Positions 924 to 9,339 of a stretch of DNA of 9,339 nt are shown here, in pieces. The notes beneath the pieces were generated by a model that did no database searches, was not told the origin of the DNA, and saw only the letters and a list, made by a program, of their open reading frames with translations. The stretch is from Candidatus Undinarchaeales archaeon (GTDB taxonomy: Archaea > SpSt-1190 > JASMDC01), in NCBI GenBank assembly GCA_030753015.1, contig JASMDC010000038.1:25962-35300 (forward strand). The letters run 5' to 3'. Made by a program: the position numbers and the translations under genes. Every line of letters starts with the position of its first letter. The stretch's first letter is position 1.

Positions 924-1039
924 GCCGGGGTGGCAGAGCGGCTAAATGCGCGGGTCTTGAAAACCCGTGGACGCGAGTCCTCCTGGGTTCAAAGTGCTGC
1001 GGGGAATACCCCCGTTGTATGAAAGTCCCAGCCCCGGCG
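924..1039 (+). tRNA. tRNA-Ser(UGA) with a T-loop intron
   Basis: Acceptor stem GCCGGGG (924-930) pairs perfectly with CCCCGGC (1032-1038); the discriminator is G1039 and CCA is not encoded. The anticodon stem CGGGT/ACCCG (951-955/963-967) encloses loop CTTGAAA, with anticodon TGA at 958-960. A long variable arm GGAC-gcga-GTCC (969-980) marks a class II serine tRNA. The T-stem is CTGGG (983-987) and CCCAG (1027-1031), but 39 bases lie between the halves instead of 7. Removing a 32-nt intron (994-1025) restores the loop TTCAAAT and an 84-nt mature tRNA. The gene sits between the Trm112-like gene and deoA without a visible promoter of its own. Confidence 0.95.
994..1025 (+). other. 32-nt tRNA intron in the T-loop (position 59/60) with a canonical BHB
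   Basis: The splice junctions fold as a full archaeal bulge-helix-bulge. The outer helix is the T-stem (983-987/1027-1031). The 4-bp central helix is TTCA (988-991) with TGAA (1020-1023). The two 3-nt bulges are AAG (992-994) and AGT (1024-1026). Cutting after the second base of each bulge gives A993/G994 and G1025/T1026. The intron interior forms its own hairpin: 995-1004 pairs with 1010-1019, with one T-T mismatch and two G-U pairs, around loop AATAC. This is the structure cut by archaeal tRNA splicing endonuclease, but at a non-canonical position rather than the usual 37/38. Confidence 0.9.
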
Positions 1040-3914: not shown

Positions 3915-4754
3915 TCATCGTATCGCTCGTCGTGGTCCTTTCTCCAGGGCGCCCTTCCCTGCGGGGATGACACGTTGAATGTCGTCCACGCCCAGTGCCT
4001 TCACCTTGTCCCGGTCCCCGTCACCGATACCTGCGTGGAACTTGGCGATGATATCGCGGGCCAACTGACCGGACTTCTTATGCCCGGGGACGATGACCAC
4101 ATGGCAGATGGTGTTCGCTATGACTGCCTCCACGGGGCCGCTCACGATCTCCCCATCATCGGTCATCCCGATGGCGAGCCTGAGGTCGGCGTTATGGAAG
4201 TAGTTCTTCTTCCCGTAGATCATGAAGCTTCCCTTGGTCAGGTACTCGCCTGCGGGTGCGCTCTTGGATACCTGGGAGCCCAGGACCCAGAACACGTCCA
4301 AGGTGGTGTATCCCATGCCCCAGGCCTTCGAGTAAGATGCGGTGGCTTGCGCGACCTGGTTGAGCACATCCTCAGATATCTCCTCGTCACCCTCCACTTT
4401 CACGGTCATGAATGGCGAGCCTGCCAGGTTGGAGTGGAACACGATGTCTTTGTCGGCAGTGTGCTTCTTGATGATGATCTCGTTGGTCGTGGCGTCCCGA
4501 CCGCCGATGACGAGCCTACCGTCTGTCGCCTTGAACCACCTGAAGACCTCGTACCAGGCACGTTCTTTCTGGACCCGGAGGCGTACCGGTGCAGCGACCT
4601 CGATCTCAGCAGTGCGTGCGTCCTCCAGCTTTGAACGGGTGCGGGTGATGGCCTTCTCGGCCCCCTTGATCTTCTCACGTGACTTCTTTGCCCGCTTGTA
4701 GTAATGCTGTGCGTTCTCCACCGCGCTCTTGCTCAGATCGACGATCACGCGCAC
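3915..4754 (-). CDS. rqcH: C-terminal half of RqcH/NEMF (coiled coil + NFACT-R), no N-terminal domain
   Basis: The 279-residue product matches the C-terminal half of the archaeal NFACT protein RqcH, which binds 60S/50S-peptidyl-tRNA complexes and adds alanine tails to stalled chains. Residues 3-48 match the end of the coiled-coil region (KSAVENAQHYYKRAKKSREK). NFACT-R (DUF814) follows, with WYEVFRWF (67-74), GGRDATTNE (84-92) and SAPAGEYLTKGSF (165-177). An extension similar to the family C-terminus completes it. Full-length archaeal RqcH is roughly 600-700 residues; the NFACT-N domain with its tRNA-contacting residues is absent. The reading frame stays open to 5030, but translation upstream of the start is low-complexity antisense of trm5, not NFACT. 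I chose GTG 4754 because GGTGA lies four bases before it; ATG is not available. It may be one half of a split gene, a standalone NFACT-R protein, or a truncated remnant; good codon use argues against decay. Confidence 0.85.
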   Translation of the reverse strand: MRVIVDLSKSAVENAQHYYKRAKKSREKIKGAEKAITRTRSKLEDARTAEIEVAAPVRLRVQKERAWYEVFRWFKATDGRLVIGGRDATTNEIIIKKHTADKDIVFHSNLAGSPFMTVKVEGDEEISEDVLNQVAQATASYSKAWGMGYTTLDVFWVLGSQVSKSAPAGEYLTKGSFMIYGKKNYFHNADLRLAIGMTDDGEIVSGPVEAVIANTICHVVIVPGHKKSGQLARDIIAKFHAGIGDGDRDKVKALGVDDIQRVIPAGKGALEKGPRRAIR

Positions 4755-4777
4755 GGAATCACCGTCCCTGTCAAACG

Positions 4778-4783
4778 TTATAA
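4778..4783. promoter_or_regulatory. Shared palindromic TATA box for divergent rqcH half-gene and trm5
   Basis: TTATAA is its own reverse complement and is the only TATA-like element in the 52-bp gap. Its centre (4780.5) is 26.5 bases from the first base of ATG 4807 on the plus strand and 26.5 bases from GTG 4754 on the minus strand. That is the archaeal TATA-to-start distance, so both transcripts could begin at or near their start codons (leaderless). Positions are seen directly; bidirectional use is inferred. Confidence 0.55.
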
Positions 4784-4806
4784 GGGTTGCCGACCGTCCC
4801 GGGAGC

Positions 4807-5835
4807 ATGCTCGTCCGGTTCGTCCGCGTTCCCCAGCAGGACACCGAGCGGGTACGCAGAGAGCTCGATACCAAGGGCCAGGTACTCCGCGGTGTCAGGT
4901 TCCTCCACAAGGACGACGATGTGCTCATCCCCGTGAACTGTGATGTACAGGGAATGGAGATGGTCGAGCGCGACGTCGAGGTCGTGCAGCGTCCGCGAAG
5001 CCTCTCTGAAGCGCTCGAGGGAGTCCTCACCGACGAGCAGATGGCTCAGCTCCGTACCTCGTTCGACGTGGTCGGCGACATAGCCGTCGTGGAGGTTCCC
5101 GAGGGGCTCGAGGACATGGAAGCGACCATCGGTGATGCCCTTCTCTCGGTCATCGGGGGCGTGCGCGTGGTATGTCGTAAGATGGGGCCGACGGCCGGTG
5201 AGTTCCGCGTGAGACCCGTGCGTGTCATCGCCGGTGAGCAGCGGACCACGACCGTATACCGTGAGCATGGGTGCAACTACGAGCTCGACCTTTCCCGCGT
5301 GTACTTCTCTCCGCGGCTCGCTACCGAGCGTGCACGCGTCGCCTCGCTCGTCCGTCCCGGTGAGACCGTTATGGGGATGTTCGCTGGCGTTGGCCCCTTC
5401 ACCATCCTCACGGCCCGCGTCCAGCCCGCGGTCGAAAGGATCTGGTCAGTGGAGCTGAATCCCGAGGCGGTCACCTATATGAAACGCAATATCAAACGGA
5501 ACCGGGTGACGGGGACCGTGCTCGCGGTCCAGGGGGACGTACGTGAGGTCGTCCCTGCATTGGGGCGGGCCGACCGTGTGTTCATGCCGTTGCCTAAGGG
5601 AGCTCATGCGTTCCTCGATGTCGCCATGGCGGCAGCTGCGGATGATGCCATCATCCACTTCTATCACTTCACCCCCGAGGATGTGCGGTTCGAGGAGGGG
5701 GCCGCGCTCATTCAGGCCGCAGCAGAAGAAGCAGATATGGGTGGTGAGGTCGTGTTCCAGCGCCAGGTCCGTTCCTTCTCTCCTGGTATCTGCCAGGTAG
5801 TCGTGGACTTCAGGGTGACCCGCAACGCTCCGTAG
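4807..5835 (+). CDS. trm5: tRNA (guanine37-N1)-methyltransferase Trm5
   Basis: This 342-residue enzyme transfers methyl from SAM to N1 of G37, 3' of the anticodon, preventing +1 frameshifting. The length matches archaeal Trm5b (about 330-350). A small N-terminal D1-like domain (about 1-62), D2 (about 65-175) ending in VYFSPRLATER (165-175) with the catalytic-region arginine, and a class I SAM fold follow: motif I MFAGVGPFTI (191-200), ELNPEA (216-221), the NPPY-like region MPLPKGAHAFLD (260-271), and the family C-terminal VRSFSPGICQVVVDF. An in-frame ATG at 4729 would extend into the rqcH half-gene; I chose ATG 4807, leaderless from the TATA at 4778-4783. The motif Asn of NLPK is Pro here (PLPK), if my alignment is right. 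Forty-five bases downstream lies tRNA-Leu(CAG), which has G37. Confidence 0.92.
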   Translation: MLVRFVRVPQQDTERVRRELDTKGQVLRGVRFLHKDDDVLIPVNCDVQGMEMVERDVEVVQRPRSLSEALEGVLTDEQMAQLRTSFDVVGDIAVVEVPEGLEDMEATIGDALLSVIGGVRVVCRKMGPTAGEFRVRPVRVIAGEQRTTTVYREHGCNYELDLSRVYFSPRLATERARVASLVRPGETVMGMFAGVGPFTILTARVQPAVERIWSVELNPEAVTYMKRNIKRNRVTGTVLAVQGDVREVVPALGRADRVFMPLPKGAHAFLDVAMAAAADDAIIHFYHFTPEDVRFEEGAALIQAAAEEADMGGEVVFQRQVRSFSPGICQVVVDFRVTRNAP

Positions 5836-5880: not shown

Positions 5881-5998
5881 GCGGGGGTGACAGAGCTGGC
5901 CAAATGTGATGGATTCAGGGTCCATTGGTTTAGTACCTGCGCGGGTTCGAAAACGATGCCGGTCAATCCCGGTACGTTCGGAAGTCCCGTCTCCCGCA
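5881..5998 (+). tRNA. tRNA-Leu(CAG) with a T-loop intron
   Basis: Acceptor stem GCGGGGG (5881-5887) pairs with CTCCCGC (5991-5997), with one G-U pair; the discriminator is A5998. The next bases read CCA (5999-6001), so CCA may be encoded. The anticodon stem ATGGA/TCCAT (5909-5913/5921-5925) holds loop TTCAGGG, with anticodon CAG at 5916-5918 and G37 at 5919. A long variable arm (about 5926-5940, stem GGT/ACC) marks a class II leucine tRNA. T-stem halves GCGGG (5941-5945) and CCCGT (5986-5990) are 40 bases apart; removing a 33-nt intron (5952-5984) gives loop TTCGAAT and an 85-nt mature tRNA. tRNA-Val follows after 7 nt, so the two are probably processed from one transcript. Confidence 0.93.
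5952..5984 (+). other. 33-nt tRNA intron in the T-loop (position 59/60), BHB-like
   Basis: The T-stem is the outer helix. Central helix TTCG (5946-5949) pairs with CGGA (5979-5982), including one G-U pair. The 3' bulge is AGT (5983-5985), identical to that of the tRNA-Ser intron, and the 5' bulge is AAA (5950-5952). Cuts at A5951/A5952 and G5984/T5985 restore a 7-base T-loop. A5952 could instead pair with T5978, giving a slightly relaxed 2-nt 5' bulge. The intron interior is a hairpin: CCGG (5959-5962)/CCGG (5969-5972) plus outer pairs AACG/CGTT (5952-5955/5975-5978). Confidence 0.85.
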
Positions 5999-6005
5999 CC
6001 ATAAA

Positions 6006-6079
6006 GGGCCTGTGGTCTAGCTGGTTATGACGCCGCCTTCACACGGCGGAGATCAGGCGTTCAAATCGCCTTGGGCCCA
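6006..6079 (+). tRNA. tRNA-Val(CAC), intronless
   Basis: Acceptor stem GGGCCTG (6006-6012) pairs with TGGGCCC (6072-6078) using two G-U pairs; the discriminator is A6079 and CCA is not encoded. The anticodon stem CCGCC/GGCGG (6033-6037/6045-6049) holds loop TTCACAC, anticodon CAC at 6040-6042. T-stem AGGCG/CGCCT (6055-6059/6067-6071) encloses an ordinary 7-base loop TTCAAAT. There is no intron, unlike the two class II tRNAs in this window. Confidence 0.95.
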
Positions 6080-7159: not shown

Positions 7160-8977
7160 TCAGGCGCGACTGAAAGGGTAACCATGAACGTAGTGATCCC
7201 GGGGATCAAGCGTTACCTTCATGATGTCGACGCCATTGCACTCGAGACCGCCCGCAGTCGACACGGAACAGAGCGCGGCCTGGCCTGCGCGGGCATGGAA
7301 TAAACCGGTCGTCGGTTCGTTACCGAATGGTATGAAAGTGACCTCGCTCAGCATCCCATCGGGCCCGTCGCCTGAATCGAGGAGCACCGTCGCCATGCCA
7401 CGTTCGTCCGTTCGGTAGTACCTTGCAGAGACGCCCTGTCGACGTACCATGATGCGAGCGCCCGGTAGCGGGCTTTCATCGTCCGATGAGATGAGGATGA
7501 CCTGGAGAGCGACGTGGCCTGGCATAGTGCTCTGGGTCACACCTGCAACATTTATTCGATAGAGGCTGCACTCAGTGCAGGATGTGAGGGGAACGCGCTC
7601 CGCGAACCCGCCATTCTCAAGGAACGGTAACGGACGATGGGAGAGCACCCACTCGGCTCCGAACTCCAGGATCATGCGAAATGCCATGTCCGGCTCCTGT
7701 GGTAGGCATTCGGTCTCGATGTCGGAGAACAGTGCTATCTCGCGGCACAAAGTCGGTGATAGAACGACGCCCGTGGGATTCTCAAGACGCTCGAGTTCGC
7801 GGACGACTGCAAGGTTCGTATTCCAGACCTCATCACTTTGTCCCATGTCGATGGGGAGGGATGCGAGCTGGGTGACCATGAGGAGGGCGAGCACTGCAAG
7901 TCCGGCCTTCGGCCCGTATCCCAGGTAGCGGGATATGTCCATGACAGCGATGACGGCGAGCGCGATGAGCGGCATGAGGACGGTCGCTACGAACTTCCAT
8001 TCGAAGTATATCGGTGAGACGAGGAACACGACCAGTGGGACGATCGCCCATGAGCCGAGGAGCAGCTTGGTGCTCCGTCGTCCGGGGATGACGAGAAGCA
8101 TGGCCAAAGATGCGAAAAGCACAGTAAATCCTGTGAAGTCATGGGCCGTGAGGAACGGATTGATGGACGCCTCGGAAGGATCGCGCCATTTGTCCTGGAA
8201 CTGGATGAGGTAACGTGCGACCTCGATGGTCGTGTCAAGACCATTGTAGTAAAGGTAAGCGTTCCATAAAAGGAAGGAGAAGGCACCCCCCGCCATAATG
8301 ATCCCTAGAAGGGCAAGACGTCGACGACCGTTCCCTGTTCTGGGTGCGTCAATGAGCACGAAGACCAGGAGCACGAGGTAGCATGGTACAAAGTTGAGCT
8401 TCGTGAACATCCCCACGGCGGACAGCACTGTACCGATGGCAAGATGGGGCATCGATCCTGCGCATGCCCTAAGATAACAGTAGATGACTGAGCTGTACAG
8501 GAAGCAGAGGATCATCGGATGCAGGATCGCCAGTGAGTACGAATAATAGGAGCTGTGGGTACCAAGGAGGAGCATGGAGATAAGGCCTGCGCGCTCCCCC
8601 GCAAGTTCTCGCACGAGGAGGCCGAAGGCCAAGAGCGCACCTATTGACGCGATTATTACCGCAAGGTGTCCTGCCGCGACCCAGTTCCCCGTGATCGTGT
8701 GGGCTGCGCCGATCAGCGCAAAGAACATTGGCGGATGGAGAATGAAGTTCTGACCGAAGATACGGGGACGGCCGTCCTCCATGATCGATCGGGCAACGAG
8801 CATGTCCCTGTACTGGTCATGGACCTTCGTCGCGTCGAAGGAAGTGATATCATTATCAGCTATCGGGGCGAGCATGCCGAAGTCCCACGTTGAGTAGGAT
8901 AATATCCCGAAGAGAATGGCCACAGTCGTGGCAATGGCCATCATAGAGGGCTTATCGTCGGCAACACTGTTCGTCAT
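7160..8977 (-). CDS. GT-C fold membrane glycosyltransferase with an Ig-like C-terminal domain
   Basis: The 605-residue protein resembles the PMT_2/ArnT (GT39/GT83) group, integral membrane enzymes that move a sugar from a lipid-phosphate carrier to protein or lipid on the outer face of the membrane. About 10-12 hydrophobic segments lie between residues 12 and 374. The first external loop holds the acidic motif DND (41-43), SFDATKVHDQYRDM (46-59) and FGQNFILHPP (74-83), as expected for the GT-C catalytic loop. Residues about 380-480 form a soluble outside region with C411, C424, C467 and C470. Residues about 486-535 (SPLPGARIMV, then TDERGMATVLL) look like a carboxypeptidase-regulatory or similar beta-sandwich domain. 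AAGGAG lies eight bases before ATG 8977. The donor and acceptor cannot be told; protein or surface-lipid glycosylation is inferred. Confidence 0.85.
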   Translation of the reverse strand: MTNSVADDKPSMMAIATTVAILFGILSYSTWDFGMLAPIADNDITSFDATKVHDQYRDMLVARSIMEDGRPRIFGQNFILHPPMFFALIGAAHTITGNWVAAGHLAVIIASIGALLAFGLLVRELAGERAGLISMLLLGTHSSYYSYSLAILHPMILCFLYSSVIYCYLRACAGSMPHLAIGTVLSAVGMFTKLNFVPCYLVLLVFVLIDAPRTGNGRRRLALLGIIMAGGAFSFLLWNAYLYYNGLDTTIEVARYLIQFQDKWRDPSEASINPFLTAHDFTGFTVLFASLAMLLVIPGRRSTKLLLGSWAIVPLVVFLVSPIYFEWKFVATVLMPLIALAVIAVMDISRYLGYGPKAGLAVLALLMVTQLASLPIDMGQSDEVWNTNLAVVRELERLENPTGVVLSPTLCREIALFSDIETECLPQEPDMAFRMILEFGAEWVLSHRPLPFLENGGFAERVPLTSCTECSLYRINVAGVTQSTMPGHVALQVILISSDDESPLPGARIMVRRQGVSARYYRTDERGMATVLLDSGDGPDGMLSEVTFIPFGNEPTTGLFHARAGQAALCSVSTAGGLECNGVDIMKVTLDPRDHYVHGYPFSRA

Positions 8978-9045
8978 GTCCGCAACTCCTTGAGTTTATA
9001 ATAATAATAGTGGTGTTTACCCTTCCGTACTGCGGTAGGATGGGT

Positions 9046-9059
9046 AAATTTATTTAAAG
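9046..9059. promoter_or_regulatory. Shared TATA region for divergent glycosyltransferase and repeat-protein genes
   Basis: AAATTTATTTAAAG contains a palindromic TTTAAA (9053-9058) and reads TATA-like on both strands. On plus it predicts a start near 9082 and a leader of about 28 nt to ATG 9110. On minus it predicts a start near 9029 and a leader of about 50 nt to ATG 8977. No other strong TATA element lies in the 132-bp gap, apart from TTATAATAATAATAG (8997-9010), which is too close to 8977 for the minus gene. Confidence 0.5.
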
Positions 9060-9109
9060 CAACATCGCCATATTCAGACTGTATCATCAATATGTAGGAG
9101 GGTATATTT

Positions 9110-9339
9110 ATGGGTCTATTCGATAAATTACGTGGAAAGAGTAGTGCACCACCGAAGCCTGGTGGTCCTCCTCCCGGTATGCCGCCTAAGCCCGGCATGG
9201 GTCCGCCGATGAAGCCCGGCATGGGTCCGCCGATGAAGCCCGGTATGGGTCCACCGATGAAGCCCGGCATGGGTCCGCCGATGAAGCCCGGTATGGGTCC
9301 ACCGATGAAGCCCGGTATGGGCCCTCCCGGAATGCCGCC
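9110..9339 (+). CDS. Pro/Gly/Met octapeptide-repeat protein (3' end outside window)
   Basis: The gene runs off the window, so only 76 complete codons are seen. The N-terminus MGLFDKLRGK is a short amphipathic helix of the kind that often lies on a membrane surface or docks to a partner. After a Pro/Gly-rich stretch, residues 27-66 are five tandem copies of KPGMGPPM, and a sixth diverges to KPGMGPPGMPP. The composition predicts a disordered or polyproline-like tail. GGAGGG (9097-9102) lies seven bases before the ATG and gives a strong start. It is divergent from the glycosyltransferase gene and may share its promoter. I do not recognise a family; similar short helix plus Pro-rich tails occur before zinc-ribbon or transmembrane domains in archaeal proteins, but what follows here is unseen. 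Confidence 0.8.
   Translation, partial: MGLFDKLRGKSSAPPKPGGPPPGMPPKPGMGPPMKPGMGPPMKPGMGPPMKPGMGPPMKPGMGPPMKPGMGPPGMP
9188..9339 (+). repeat. 24-bp tandem coding repeats with a 48-bp duplication
   Basis: Five 24-bp units (starting 9188, 9212, 9236, 9260, 9284), each encoding KPGMGPPM, are followed by a diverging unit at 9308. Units differ only at silent sites (GGC/GGT and CCG/CCA). Units 2+3 (9212-9259) and 4+5 (9260-9307) are identical over 48 bp, indicating a recent duplication of a two-unit block. Confidence 0.95.

Follow-up and report, generated by a model that had tools for sequence, protein, structure and literature searches.

A predicted T-loop intron in an archaeal tRNA-Ser(UGA) and the occurrence of introns at position 59/60 in other archaeal tRNAs

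The tRNA-Ser(UGA) gene and its T-arm

The window analyzed here, a DNA stretch of 9,339 nucleotides, carries on its plus strand a tRNA-Ser(UGA) gene with a T-loop intron at positions 924–1039. The gene starts 12 nt past a short ORF (738–911), the product of which looks like a Trm112-type protein when judged by eye, and it ends 42 nt before the start of the AMP phosphorylase gene at 1082; an inverted repeat, TCACCC...GGGTGA, is located between the tRNA gene and that start, at 1043–1067. Two features elsewhere in the window were recorded in passing. An NFACT-family ORF on the minus strand (3915–5030), overlapping the Trm5/TYW2 ORF, matches only the end of NFACT_N and the NFACT-R domain and is probably an N-terminally truncated gene. 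A 24-bp tandem repeat of 5.6 copies (9188–9321) results in GFIGGPMP-like repeats in a minus-strand ORF at 8974–9270.

The acceptor stem of the tRNA (GCCGGGG/CCCCGGC, 924–930/1032–1038), the anticodon stem and the T-stem (CTGGG/CCCAG, 983–987/1027–1031) are all intact; the anticodon is TGA, the discriminator base is a G at 1039 (G73) and the CCA end is not encoded. The 5' exon (924–993, tRNA positions 1–59) terminates in the T-stem strand CTGGG followed by TTCAAA (positions 54–59), and the 3' exon (1026–1039) opens with T60 and continues through CCCAG, CCCCGGC and G73, so that the intervening 32-nt intron (994–1025) is placed at 59/60 and the T-stem halves lie 39 nt apart. The T-arm displays a strict hBHBh' architecture: (i) the T-stem, (ii) a 4-bp central helix, in which TTCA at 988–991 (tRNA positions 54–57) pairs with the intronic TGAA at 1020–1023, (iii) 3-nt bulges, AAG at 992–994 and AGT at 1024–1026, and (iv) an intron hairpin with the core TGC.GCGGGG/CCCCGT.GTA. 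Following the rule derived from archaeal BHB substrates, cleavage is predicted between A993 and G994 and between G1025 and T1026, which would yield an exon junction of GGGTTCAAA joined to TCCCAG and a spliced T-loop of TTCAAAT. The coordinates, T-stem spacing, helix and bulges described in the first-pass annotation are thus right, and the sequence also bears out its intron length, its spliced loop and its statement that T-loop bases 54–57 are occupied by the central helix before splicing.

When the spliced sequence was submitted to ARAGORN, it was called as tRNA-Ser(tga), i.e. a standard tRNA of the expected isotype, and the unspliced gene received no call from either ARAGORN or the Rfam tRNA model. 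The minimum-energy RNAfold structure of the T-arm has an internal loop at the central helix, and the BHB fold lies 2.1 kcal/mol higher. Both exons are encoded on one strand in normal order, 32 nt apart, and together make a complete tRNA. Thermofilum pendens uses the same junction, 59/60, in its permuted or split tRNAs (PMC3218864; PMC3978253), but this exon arrangement leaves only a negligible chance that the gene forms part of such a tRNA.

Interrupted tRNAs within the genome

The source genome is a 3.85-Mb assembly of 117 contigs, estimated to be 98.9% complete (the closest relatives sampled belong to the same class and measure 0.6–1.1 Mb, and the genomes sampled include no second class of the phylum). 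The first-pass annotation had named another intact tRNA-Ser(UGA) as a finding that would speak against it. None was found in this genome by the Rfam tRNA model, a model of the 5' half of tRNAs, a T-loop-intron model or a search with the gene's own DNA, the last of which covers intact and interrupted copies alike. The Rfam and 5'-half models perform poorly on class II tRNAs with T-loop introns, which neither recovered as full tRNAs, but an intact Ser(UGA) is within their reach. In other genomes, including four of the same class in which it is uninterrupted, the orthologous Ser(UGA) gene mostly has no intron, and this lends support to the intron ends assigned here.

Five tRNAs of the genome are interrupted at exactly 59/60, namely Ser(UGA), Leu(CAG), Leu(CAA), Leu(UAA) and Gln(UUG), and these fill gaps in its listed tRNA set. 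The Leu(CAG) gene lies within the window at 5881–5998 on the plus strand and had gone unmentioned in the earlier reading. It consists of a 5' exon (5881–5951), a 33-nt intron (5952–5984) with the central helix TTCG/CGGA, and a 3' exon (5985–5998); tRNA-Val(CAC) follows directly at 6006–6079. The remaining introns measure 23 nt in Leu(CAA) on contig C23, 31 nt in Gln(UUG) on contig C56 and 39 nt in Leu(UAA) on contig C44. ARAGORN called Leu(UAA) as intronless with a false 3' end, and the other four genes were called neither by ARAGORN nor by the Rfam model.

All five introns possess a full 4/4 central helix and give spliced loops of the form TTCRAAT, and four of the five reside in class II tRNAs. 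Three of the five had been located from the 5' exon without recourse to the BHB motif, which therefore serves as an independent check. A full central helix occurred in 2.5–5.5% of shuffled introns, and the product of these frequencies over the five introns is about 1e-7; for the four introns other than that of Ser(UGA), the BHB fold lies 0–1.6 kcal/mol above the free minimum. Pairwise comparison of the five introns showed no relatedness.

Introns at 37/38 interrupt about seven further tRNAs of the genome. A tRNA-Ile with anticodon UAU (L021, 1501–1602) has a 28-nt intron at 37/38 and represents an uncommon way of reading AUA in archaea. In the tRNA-Ile(GAU) gene (L073, 101–207, minus strand), miscalled by ARAGORN as Thr(CGT), an apparent intron of 32 nt with a strict BHB lies near 30/31. 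The sole remaining gap in the tRNA set is tRNA-Ala(UGC), which was not found by a model search and two pattern searches.

The failure of standard tRNA finders to recognize the Ser(UGA) gene would fit a silenced pseudogene that received a chance insertion in its T-arm. This explanation is very improbable in view of the intact acceptor, anticodon and T stems, the finding of only this one Ser(UGA) gene, and the presence of four other single-copy tRNAs interrupted at the exact same bond with a full BHB. We are nearly certain, judging from the sequence, that 924–1039 is the working tRNA-Ser(UGA) gene of this genome and that it contains a protein-spliced archaeal intron at the noncanonical site 59/60, splicing being predicted.

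Introns at 59/60 across archaeal genomes

To survey archaea for similar genes, a covariance model was trained on four of the genome's own genes, with the variable arm and intron apex shortened by hand for alignment. It was applied to 297 archaeal genomes, our own among them, and matches were fetched and read from the strongest ones, hence the counts are lower bounds. At least 76 further 59/60 introns were identified in at least 54 of the 296 other genomes, distributed over many families; with our own genome included, the total is at least 81 cases in at least 55 of 297. With the predicted intron removed, each of the 76 genes read has 7/7 acceptor pairs and 5/5 T-stem pairs, and the central helix was complete in 71 of them, a share biased upward because the survey model included that helix. 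Four matches of short span, read as a control, proved to be plain tRNAs. Position 57 covaries with its intronic partner, as evidenced by A-U pairs in 37 of 39 cases with A57 and by 31 G-C plus 4 G-U pairs in 37 cases with G57; since this helix formed part of the model and the genomes share ancestry, the test is supportive rather than clean.

These data bear on whether the insert might be retained in mature tRNA-Ser as an extended T-arm, a reading that draws on the predicted folding of the insert into a lengthened T-stem. Excision is indicated by the exact BHB present at each junction and by at least 81 similar cases in which the helix partner tracks position 57, and a 39-nt T-loop would forfeit the D-loop contact and the standard T-loop features; we regard retention as most unlikely. 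The first-pass annotation had further considered 59/60 introns to be best known from Thermoproteales and unusual in a euryarchaeon-like genome. The implied rarity outside Thermoproteales agrees with the older literature (PMC4090602; PMC3218864), but it is weakened by the survey, with its at least 81 cases in many families.

The sites were also compared with the number of EndA matches per genome. Introns at 59/60 occur alongside no more than one EndA match in families f16, f17 and f32 and in the single-contig genome G087, and alongside two in families such as f35, f40 and f6. A review describes Euryarchaeota with α4 or α2 enzymes as carrying a single intron, which occupies the canonical position (PMC4090602). 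Our findings suggest that a single-gene EndA enzyme may limit the motif and not the place of the intron.

In the genus g22 (G022, G044 and G064), several T-loop introns, located in Leu, Ala, Cys, Pro and Glu tRNAs, clearly resemble one another, with z values up to 17. This likeness would be expected if introns moved from one tRNA to another at 59/60. Large-scale transposition of tRNA introns is known from Thermoproteales (Fujishima 2010, as cited in PMC4390854). The g22 loci with one intron sequence family are L184, L186, L188, L200, L202, L208 and L221, and each of their genomes gave one EndA match. A resemblance of the Ser(UGA) intron to two g22 introns was weak (z about 3.9) and was dismissed as chance-level given the number of comparisons. 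On balance we lean toward the broader interpretation that archaeal tRNAs recurrently use 59/60 as a second site for introns across many families, including families with a single M. jannaschii-like EndA, that the enzyme limits the motif rather than the place, and that in at least one such genus a T-loop intron has spread by copying among unrelated tRNAs.

Predicted processing and relation to known systems

The single EndA gene of the genome encodes a 193-aa protein that has both the N-terminal and the C-terminal endonuclease domain, and RtcB ligase is likewise encoded once; the splicing machinery expected for the intron is thus present. The best PDB match of EndA is the tRNA endonuclease 1a79 (E 4e-28), with the regions of the active-site Tyr, His and Lys aligned; we take this structure to be the M. 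jannaschii homotetramer. A single endA gene of about 170–200 aa related to that of M. jannaschii corresponds to the α4 type, and, judged by the number of genes, protein size and similarity, the enzyme would have an α4 quaternary form. A gene for a TnpB-like transposon protein (L079, 1962–3131, minus strand) adjoins the EndA gene. Enzymes of the M. jannaschii-like type have been described as cleaving the canonical BHB motif only (PMC4033280), and the strict motif in all five 59/60 introns of the genome matches that description.

In the processing that we propose, the single EndA, which most resembles the homotetrameric enzyme of M. jannaschii, would cleave each bulge 3' of its second base, RtcB would join the Ser(UGA) exons and the intron would be released. 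Only a local motif is needed, and the intron can therefore sit in the T-arm. Archaeal tRNA transcription is not known to depend on an internal B box, which would make an intron in the T-loop tolerable. Because the central helix engages bases 54–57, the T-loop fold would be impossible before splicing, and the site would thus impose an order on maturation in which T-loop modification and D-loop/T-loop docking wait until the intron has been removed. Two wider consequences may be drawn. Because ARAGORN and the Rfam model miss or misname genes with T-loop introns, uncultured archaea seem to have gaps in their tRNA sets, and the occurrence of 59/60 introns across single-EndA families offers a test of the textbook view that intron position goes with enzyme architecture.

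Among known systems, the canonical archaeal BHB introns at 37/38 share the BHB rule and the enzymes with the introns described here and differ in position, since in Ser(UGA) the T-loop rather than the anticodon loop provides the helix. The permuted tRNAs of Thermofilum pendens (PMC3218864) have their junction at the same T-loop bond, whereas the Ser(UGA) exons are unpermuted. A T-arm intron with a BHB has also been described in pre-tRNA-Ile(UAU) of the red alga Cyanidioschyzon merolae, where it is reported to block formation of pseudouridine 55 by Pus4 before splicing (PMC9602550); that case differs in being eukaryotic, in interrupting bond 53/54 and in belonging to a multi-intron precursor. 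Closest are the noncanonical 59/60 introns reported by Sugahara, Chan and others, which, as summarized in a review (PMC4090602), agree in position, BHB motif and expected processing. The site itself is therefore known, being already listed as a noncanonical archaeal tRNA intron site in that review, and the Ser(UGA) case is real and well supported at the sequence level. Known examples come mainly from Crenarchaeota and Nanoarchaeota (PMC4090602), whereas the genome studied here has five, all with strict motifs, together with one EndA gene; a distribution that appears broader than described is the most interesting part of these observations.
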